From a virus, in IMG/VR virus record IMGVR_UViG_3300027708_000202, positions 1-33,423 of that record: 33,423 nt of DNA; one strand, given 5' to 3'. Numbering within the stretch: the stretch's first letter is position 1; every line of letters starts with the position of its first letter. Below are positions 14,709 to 23,654 of the stretch, one piece after another. The notes below the pieces were generated by a model. It was not told where the DNA came from and did no database searches. It saw only the letters and a list, made by a program, of their open reading frames with translations. The position numbers and the translations under genes are program-made.

Positions 14709-14920
14709 TGGATGAAGAAAAAAGAATTGTTACATTTATGGGTAAATCCGGTAAAAGAACTGCTACTATTGCCTTCAAAAATGTATTTGACCTCTTTGAG
14801 GTTGAGTGTGTTGAAGGTGATGGTATGGTTCAAATTGAAACTAGATTTTTTAAAGATGAAGCAGAAGCACAAGCTTATGCTGAACAATTTGCTTTTGGAG
14901 AAGAATATGGAACTGTCTAA
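14705..14920 (+). CDS. Small phage protein, coupled to the CobT-like gene
   Basis: 71 residues; the ATGATG start overlaps the previous stop by 4 bases. A beta-rich N-terminal half (RIVTFMGKSGKRTATIAF) is followed by an acidic, Ala-rich helix. No known motif. Coupling suggests it is made with the VWA protein and may assist it, but that is only inference. Confidence 0.65.
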   Translation: MMDEEKRIVTFMGKSGKRTATIAFKNVFDLFEVECVEGDGMVQIETRFFKDEAEAQAYAEQFAFGEEYGTV

Positions 14921-18878: not shown

Positions 18879-19103
18879 ATGTTTTCAGATATTAACCATG
18901 TAGTAACTTCATTAACTTTAAAACAAAAGCGTGATTTAGTTAAGTCATTACGCCAGATTATCGCTGAAGAAGTTAAAGATAATAAAATCAGTAAAATTAT
19001 CGCTAAATCTAATAAAGAAGCAGAAAAGAAAGCGAAAGTATTAGCGCAGATTAAAGCGGCAGAAGATAAACTTGCCAAATTAAACGCTAAACTGGCAGTA
19101 TAA
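18879..19103 (+). CDS. Small Lys/Ala-rich helical protein (74 aa)
   Basis: 74 residues with AAAAAGGAA upstream. Almost entirely helical; the C-terminal half (about 40-74) is a Lys/Ala/Glu coiled coil (KEAEKKAKVLAQIKAAEDKL). No motif. It may be a small DNA- or protein-binding factor; function unknown. Confidence 0.6.
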   Translation: MFSDINHVVTSLTLKQKRDLVKSLRQIIAEEVKDNKISKIIAKSNKEAEKKAKVLAQIKAAEDKLAKLNAKLAV

Positions 19104-19110
19104 TGCTTAT

Positions 19111-19143
19111 AATAACCATTAGATAATAGTGGTTATTAGTAAG
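19111..19143 (+). repeat. Hairpin-TTATTAGTAAG repeat, copy A
   Basis: AATAACCA (19111-19118) pairs perfectly with TGGTTATT (19130-19137), followed by AGTAAG. It shares 17 identical bases (TAGTGGTTATTAGTAAG) with copy C at 22071-22087 and the GGTTATTAGTAAG tail with copy B at 19443. It lies between genes, 32 bases before the next ATG. Confidence 0.65.
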
Positions 19144-20712: not shown

Positions 20713-20812
20713 ATTTTTATATACTTTAATGGTATTATTCTGTATTGTAACTGGTATATTATTGGTGTTTAATATAATCGTTGGATTAATGTATACTCAT
20801 TATTATCTATGA
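20699..20812 (+). CDS. Very small membrane protein (37 aa)
   Basis: ATG at 20699 overlaps the previous gene by 14 bases, with AAGGAA upstream. Nearly the whole protein is hydrophobic (residues 8-32), one membrane span ending in a Tyr-rich tail. It is the last gene before the hairpin-promoter block at 20817. Confidence 0.5.
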   Translation: MHHYRFLYTLMVLFCIVTGILLVFNIIVGLMYTHYYL

Positions 20813-20816
20813 AGTG

Positions 20817-20836
20817 GTGTTGTTCCGATACAACAC
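20817..20836 (+). repeat. Inter-operon hairpin (GTGTTGT/ACAACAC)
   Basis: GTGTTGT (20817-20823) pairs perfectly with ACAACAC (20830-20836) across TCCGAT. The same 7-bp stem recurs at 23564-23583 with a different 6-base loop. It lies just after an operon end and 47 bases before a promoter. Confidence 0.6.
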
Positions 20837-20883
20837 ATTTAGTATTATCGGCCAAGTATTGTTATTGGAATATGCCATATTGC

Positions 20884-20911
20884 TTGTGGTCTATTCTAAT
20901 ACCTGTATAAT
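20884..20911 (+). promoter_or_regulatory. Sigma70-type promoter for the GP88-like gene
   Basis: TTGTGG (20884-20889), 16-base spacer, TATAAT (20906-20911) followed by GGTTTTTTAA. The -35 is weak and identical to that at 23599. The expected transcript start (about 20918) is just before the structured leader at 20925. Confidence 0.75.
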
Positions 20912-20924
20912 GGTTTTTTAAATG

Positions 20925-21042
20925 CCAGAGTTATTTTGGCGAGGGTTAAGTGAATATAAGGTATATAATATTATATGCCTCTAATATCAGGACGCTGATT
21001 ATAGTATATTCTAGGAACTGACTCGCTCCAAAATAACTTTGG
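20925..21042 (+). ncRNA. Candidate structured leader RNA with three-way junction
   Basis: Arms 20925-20943 and 21022-21042 form a 19-bp stem (one G-U, one 2-base bulge). Inside, GAATATA (20952-20958) pairs with TATATTC (21005-21011) and encloses two hairpins: 20960-20979 (8 bp, loop ATAT, one G-U) and 20986-20999 (ATCAG/CTGAT, loop GACG). The stem begins some 7 bases after the expected transcript start and the GP88-like gene begins 47 bases after it ends. It looks like a riboswitch-type or protein-bound leader; no known class is recognised. Confidence 0.6.
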
Positions 21043-21089
21043 TTTAATCTTGATTGTAATTTTTAAGAAAAGAAGGAATTGGTGAGAAT

Positions 21090-21866
21090 ATGAATTTATT
21101 ATCAGTCGGTAATCCCAAGACTTTAAAGGGAATGAAGCAAGGTTATAATACCTATATTCTTCATTTAGCACCAGCATCATTATCTGGTCATAATACCTGT
21201 CCTAAAGCGACACCAGGTTGCATTTCTGCTTGTTTGAATACTGCTGGTCGTGGTGGTATGTTTAAAAAAGGCGAGAATACTAATACTATTCAAAAAGCAC
21301 GGATTCGTAAAACACAATTATTCTATGATAATCGTGACCTGTTTATGGAGTTATTGGTAAAAGATATTAACTTGGCGATTAAGCAATCTGCCAAAGCAGG
21401 TCTAATACCAGTTATTCGTTTAAATGGTACTTCCGATATATCATGGGAGAAATATCCAGTTAAAATGGGTAATGTAGTATATACTAACATATTCTCAGCT
21501 TTTGAGTTTATCCAGTTTTATGATTATACTAAGGTACTTGGTCGTAAAACTCAGAGCATTACCAATTATCATTTAACCTTCAGTATGGCAGATGGTAATT
21601 ACTTAGATTGTAAACAGGCAGTTCAGCAAGGTTATAATATTGCTGTAGTATTTGGTATTAAGAAAGGTACACCAATGCCTAAGAAATTCTTTAATCATAA
21701 TATGACTGTATTTAATGGTGATGAGTCTGATTTGCGTTTTTTAGATCCTGCCAATTCTATTATCGGTCTATATGCTAAAGGTAAGGCAAAGAAGGATACT
21801 AGCGGTTTCGTGCAATATCCAATCGGTGATTATTCATTTACTATCAAATTAGATAAGGCGGCTTAA
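21090..21866 (+). CDS. GP88-like phage protein
   Basis: 258 residues. The N-terminal block HNTCPKATPGCISACLNTAGRGG (Cys37, Cys44, Cys48) and the following KARIRKTQLFYDNRDLFMELL match the gene product 88 family I know from actinobacteriophages and other phages; its function is not established. The three Cys could bind metal. The C-terminal half is alpha/beta (VVFGIKKGTPMPKKF). AGAAGGAA lies upstream of the ATG, behind an unusual structured leader. By far the largest protein in the 18-26 kb array. Confidence 0.8.
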   Translation: MNLLSVGNPKTLKGMKQGYNTYILHLAPASLSGHNTCPKATPGCISACLNTAGRGGMFKKGENTNTIQKARIRKTQLFYDNRDLFMELLVKDINLAIKQSAKAGLIPVIRLNGTSDISWEKYPVKMGNVVYTNIFSAFEFIQFYDYTKVLGRKTQSITNYHLTFSMADGNYLDCKQAVQQGYNIAVVFGIKKGTPMPKKFFNHNMTVFNGDESDLRFLDPANSIIGLYAKGKAKKDTSGFVQYPIGDYSFTIKLDKAA

Positions 21867-22047: not shown

Positions 22048-22053
22048 TTTTAT

Positions 22054-22087
22054 AGTAACCACTAACAATATAGTGGTTATTAGTAAG
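22054..22087 (+). repeat. Hairpin-TTATTAGTAAG repeat, copy C
   Basis: AGTAACCACTA (22054-22064) pairs with TAGTGGTTATT (22071-22081), 11 pairs with one G-U, followed by AGTAAG. It shares 17 identical bases with copy A. It lies 34 bases before the next ATG, almost the same spacing as copy A (32). Confidence 0.65.
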
Positions 22088-23598: not shown

Positions 23599-23627
23599 TT
23601 GTGGTTTCCTCAGGACTCCTGTATAAT
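23599..23627 (+). promoter_or_regulatory. Sigma70-type promoter
   Basis: TTGTGG (23599-23604), 17-base spacer, TATAAT (23622-23627) followed by GGTACATTATTAAG. It drives the gene at 23655. Confidence 0.78.
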
Positions 23628-23654
23628 GGTACATTATTAAGTGAAAGGCATTAT

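Follow-up and report, generated by a model that had tools for sequence, protein, structure and literature searches.

A three-way-junction RNA and a conserved candidate operator hairpin share the leader of a phage GP88 gene

Introduction

What does a large and highly ordered RNA do in the leader of a gene from GP88, a widespread phage family for which we know of no function? The question is raised by IMGVR_UViG_3300027708_000202, whose positions 1-33,423 form the window, that is, the whole stretch of DNA (33,423 nucleotides) analyzed here. A gene on its + strand (21090-21866, 258 aa) encodes a GP88-family protein (Pfam PF17338, E 5.5e-38; phrog_1617), and the leader of this gene, studied on the same strand, was proposed in an initial annotation to carry a new phage cis-regulatory RNA that senses a metabolite or a protein. 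Two Shine-Dalgarno candidates can be read from the sequence before the start codon, AGAAGGA at 21071-21077 and GGTGAG at 21081-21086. A 20-codon ORF that begins with the ATG at 20922, close to the likely 5′ end of the transcript, is not preceded by a Shine-Dalgarno sequence and was treated as a chance occurrence.

Results

The most prominent feature of the leader is a 118-nt structured element containing a three-way junction (20925-21042, + strand), with pairing that extends over 20924-21043. The closing stem joins a 5′ arm at 20925-20943 to a 3′ arm at 21022-21042 and comprises 15 + 4 bp, including a single G-U pair (20928/21039) and a 2-nt bulge (21027-21028), which is the 19-bp stem that the initial annotation had described. 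Four further pairs (20944-20947/21016-21019) are absent from that description. The annotated 7-bp stem (20952-20958/21005-21011, spanning 20952-21011) and the two hairpins that it holds are likewise recovered in the minimum free energy fold, the hairpins in lengthened form: that at 20960-20979 gains the pair 20959/20980, and that at 20986-20999 gains pairs 20981-20983/21002-21004, for overall extents of 20959-20980 and 20981-21004. Pair probabilities are 0.8-1.0 for the outer 14 bp, the 7-bp stem and both hairpins, and fall to 0.37-0.6 for the pairs of 20939-20947 in the inner closing stem because another register competes there.

This fold is considerably more stable than expected from composition. 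Positions 20912-21089 fold at -49.6 kcal/mol, compared with -31.7 ± 3.6 for dinucleotide-shuffled controls (z -4.96, 0/200 shuffles), and the element alone (20924-21043) reaches -46.0 kcal/mol (z -7.1, 0/300 shuffles), below all 1,666 sliding 120-nt segments of the + strand of the contig, the lowest of which has -40.1. That lowest segment, 14721-14840 (z -5.8), covers the start of a small gene. Other structured spots are found by the same scan at 19041 and 21981 (z -6.2 and -5.6), and positions 19109-19143 and 22053-22087 share ATAGTGGTTATTAGTAAG, with a hairpin-forming flank, which also occurs in the related loci L005 and L010.

A covariance search of Rfam returns no family for the element, either at the gathering cut-off or in a search at E 10, the best sub-threshold match being a plant miRNA precursor (E 0.066); this is in line with the earlier remark that no known riboswitch class could be recognized. 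Searches of the element for tRNA and tmRNA and for nucleotide matches in phage records were also negative. In addition, the fold displays no expression platform: there is no terminator in 20924-21090, and both Shine-Dalgarno candidates reside outside the structure.

Upstream of the element is a phage promoter (20884-20911, + strand) with a -35 segment, TTGTGGT, at 20884 and a -10 segment, TATAAT, at 20906-20911. The TTGTGGT/TATAAT arrangement is found in 34 distinct sequences from the window and its relatives, including position 23599 of the window. Since the promoter recurs in relatives, the start of transcription can reasonably be placed at 20917-20920, about 6-9 nt past 20911. The element would thus begin to pair no more than 7 nt past the 5′ end of the transcript, leaving 4-7 nt unpaired, in agreement with the interval of about 7 bases given by the initial annotation. 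The phage-type promoter GCTTGTGGT-N14-16-TGTATAATGG (20884-20914 and 23599-23630 in the window) also recurs across relatives before different genes, and in L013, L005 and L028 the counterpart of the promoter stretch 20819-20916 precedes another gene. A terminator-like hairpin (20817-20836, + strand) separates the promoter from the upstream gene, and similar TGTTGT...ACAACA hairpins precede GP88 in relatives. Around the -35 segment lies a dyad, ATTGGAATATGCCATATTGCTTGTGGTCTATTCTAAT (20864-20900, assigned to neither strand), that is kept in 16 distinct cassettes with arms that change in pairs (GGAATA/TATTCY versus GGAATG/CATTCT) and is possibly an operator or a hairpin.

Comparison with other GP88 leaders places the element in a different light. 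It is absent from all 80 GP88 loci fetched from IMG/VR as a comparison set, and no conserved, covarying counterpart of its structure exists across these homologous leaders; being confined to one sequence, it offers no argument from conservation for a sensing role. Aligned to the window, the nearest relatives stop matching at 20914-20924 and match again from 21039-21049; the second match begins later in L009 (21081), and in L025 and more distant loci it begins at the start codon. The spacer that separates the -10 segment from a conserved hairpin downstream (see below) measures 137 nt in the window and 19 nt once the 118 bp of 20925-21042 are removed, and eight relatives (L004, L006, L008, L012, L027, L034, L044 and L047) have spacers of 18-21 nt. 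Near-perfect 15-bp terminal inverted repeats bound the 118 bp. There is no convincing target-site duplication, the best candidate (TGGTTT) being offset such that the spacing is not restored.

No second copy of the element was found in the window, the fetched loci, IMG/VR or GTDB, the two large collections having been scanned by exact k-mers, which miss diverged copies, in searches from which near-identical records may be hidden. The k-mer matches in IMG/VR and GTDB (two in the latter) were to unrelated sequence that is missing the fold and were set aside as chance, and a 15-mer match in L025 does not lie within a similar fold. Relative to the collections searched, therefore, the element is unique, and by sequence comparison it looks like a lineage-specific insertion.

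The same spacer carries other structures elsewhere. L089, L002 and L009 contain unrelated hairpins at this location, with structure in the absence of shared sequence. In L026, the same promoter is separated from the conserved hairpin by a structured insert of about 190 nt (L026:377-562), in which a closed RNA, with the closing stem AAATAAGG/CCTTATTT, precedes an 11-bp hairpin with a run of six T. This insert is different from and unrelated to the three-way junction of the window, and it too has no Rfam match and no phage match.

Directly 3′ to the inserted element, and a few nucleotides 5′ of the GP88 Shine-Dalgarno sequence, is a small hairpin (21048-21068, + strand) that reads UCUUGA-UUGUAAUUU-UUAAGA, with the core GATTGWAAWTTTT at 21052-21064. 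The letters of this core are nearly invariant (GATTG-W-AA-W-TTTT), and the stem pairs are exchanged freely: the arms are CTC/GAG, CTT/AAG, TTC/GAA or CTTT/AAAG among relatives and CTTTATA/TATAAAG in the group of L005, L010 and L028. The exact core is present once each in 14 of 19 relative contigs, always before GP88. In a search of 454,740 bases, a covariance model of the hairpin (R1) recovers it where GP88 begins in 19 sources, the window included (E <0.001); hits elsewhere all have E >1. The motif is missing from six cultured GP88 phages (XacN1, CM1, DC31, Bylgja, HTVC120P and ctYwJ313).

Within an alignment of 18 distinct rows (A1), 96.7% of cells are paired; when the partners are shifted by one column, pairing falls to 57-69%. 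Two-sided changes occur in 16 cells, compared with 5.9 ± 2.3 in shuffles (0/500). Counted by pair instead of by cell, two-sided change (2 pairs) does not exceed shuffles, and neither does the number of pair types, because only two or three pairs vary. Covariation support for the hairpin is thus real in this alignment, yet it rests on few columns. The hairpin is also short and AT-rich, with a consensus energy of -3.2 kcal/mol; its probability is 0.28 when 20918-21089 is folded and 0.87 when 20800-21200 is folded, and when the folded stretch takes in 60 nt of coding sequence, pairing of the 5′ arm (21045-21052) with 21138-21145 is favored instead.

Discussion

The location of the hairpin 5′ of the Shine-Dalgarno sequence, together with a fixed loop on a freely changing stem, is the signature of a translational operator that is bound by a protein. 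By analogy with T4 gene 43, the hairpin at 21048-21068 is probably a regulatory element of GP88 that acts as a translational operator. In T4 and RB69, gp43 binds an operator hairpin with a conserved loop on its own mRNA, and the top 10 bases of the two operators, including the UAAC loop, are identical (PMC3014915). Like the gene 43 operator, the GP88 hairpin is a leader hairpin near the ribosome-binding site whose loop is fixed and whose stem covaries. Unlike that operator, this candidate has a 9-nt loop (UUGWAAWUU) and precedes a different gene. The resemblance concerns this hairpin and not the three-way junction. For clues to RNA binding, the structure of GP88 was modeled with AlphaFold (pLDDT 67.7); the model matches no PDB entry at E <0.05, and no solved relative was found by sequence or fold. 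The low-confidence model suggests an alternation of strands and helices, and cysteines C37, C44 and C48 of the protein are invariant.

We tentatively favor an arrangement of two layers, in which the hairpin would serve as a translational operator and the three-way junction would be an acquired, mainly protective 5′-terminal structure. In the first layer, some binder (perhaps GP88 itself, which is a guess) would contact the loop of the hairpin and alter ribosome loading. The second layer, restricted to this genome, would be the 118-nt RNA bounded by inverted repeats between the transcript start and the hairpin. A single-stranded 5′ end of about 4-7 nt, together with the lack of overlap with a ribosome-binding site or terminator, suggests that the effect of this RNA is most likely passive; it would protect the 5′ end of the mRNA and insulate the downstream hairpin, or be neutral. 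The unrelated spacer hairpins of L089, L002 and L009 hint at such sealing of the 5′ end, and the many relatives without spacer structure hint against it. Protection of the 5′ end is dispensable, since many near relatives do with short, unstructured spacers.

It could also be that the 118-bp piece is a selfish or accidental insertion (MITE-like, a foldback element or a relic of recombination) that has no function in the leader. Its inverted ends, its occurrence in one genome and the spacing recovered upon its removal all fit this explanation, as does the variation of the site in length and content among relatives, the L026 insert included, but no second copy was found in the searches described above and no target-site duplication is convincing, and we regard it as somewhat unlikely. 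The insert does resemble MITE and foldback elements in being short and non-coding with inverted ends.

The roles that assign an activity to the three-way junction itself seem less probable. That it is a riboswitch-like cis-regulator of a ligand or protein, as the initial annotation proposed, is suggested by an ordered junction just past the start of transcription and by the other complex RNA, followed by a hairpin and T-run, at the same place in L026. We nevertheless consider this very unlikely, given a fold with no demonstrable conserved nucleotides, no Rfam match and no expression platform, and 80 relatives that do without it. What stands of that proposal is a stable, new leader RNA; the candidate for cis-regulation is the conserved, covarying hairpin, which the annotation did not mention. 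The strong GP88 promoter might instead drive a trans-acting small RNA, the element being released from the transcript by processing while GP88 is translated from what is left. This would suit an RNA that is compact and closed and whose ends pair just past a promoter, and the closed RNA with its hairpin and six T in L026 is compatible with it; this idea is very doubtful, however, as the element of the window is followed by no terminator and has no homologue and no known target. A broader reading, in which the GP88 leaders of these phages receive unrelated structured RNAs at one site (the three-way junction here, and in L026 the complex RNA with its terminator-like hairpin) that act as sensors or released small RNAs upstream of the conserved new operator hairpin, strikes us as quite unlikely.

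Several other known systems invite comparison. The packaging RNA of phi29 is about 120 nt long and has a three-way junction and paired ends, all of which the element shares, although the latter has no Rfam match, belongs to another type of phage and is located in a leader. PeSL cassettes of T4-like phages were reportedly treated by Arbiol in 2010 and Comeau in 2014. They are mentioned in PMC4503421 as shuffled cassettes of a promoter and a stem-loop. Going by that description of PeSLs, the GP88 leader may be similar, in that its promoter recurs, an intergenic hairpin accompanies it and the cassette precedes other genes in relatives; it is dissimilar in that the inserted fold stands after the promoter. 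Hairpins at the 5′ terminus impede RppH and stabilize bacterial mRNAs, among them stabilizing stem-loops of the ompA and papA type (cited in PMC3997798). The element likewise places a strong stem a few nucleotides from the probable 5′ end; unlike those stem-loops, it is much larger and contains a three-way junction, and depending on the host, RNase E and RppH may not apply.

For GP88, the outcome is a testable control element in the form of a small hairpin whose loop is nearly invariant. More generally, the conserved regulator of a leader can be small and easily missed beside an impressive fold that is itself the newcomer.
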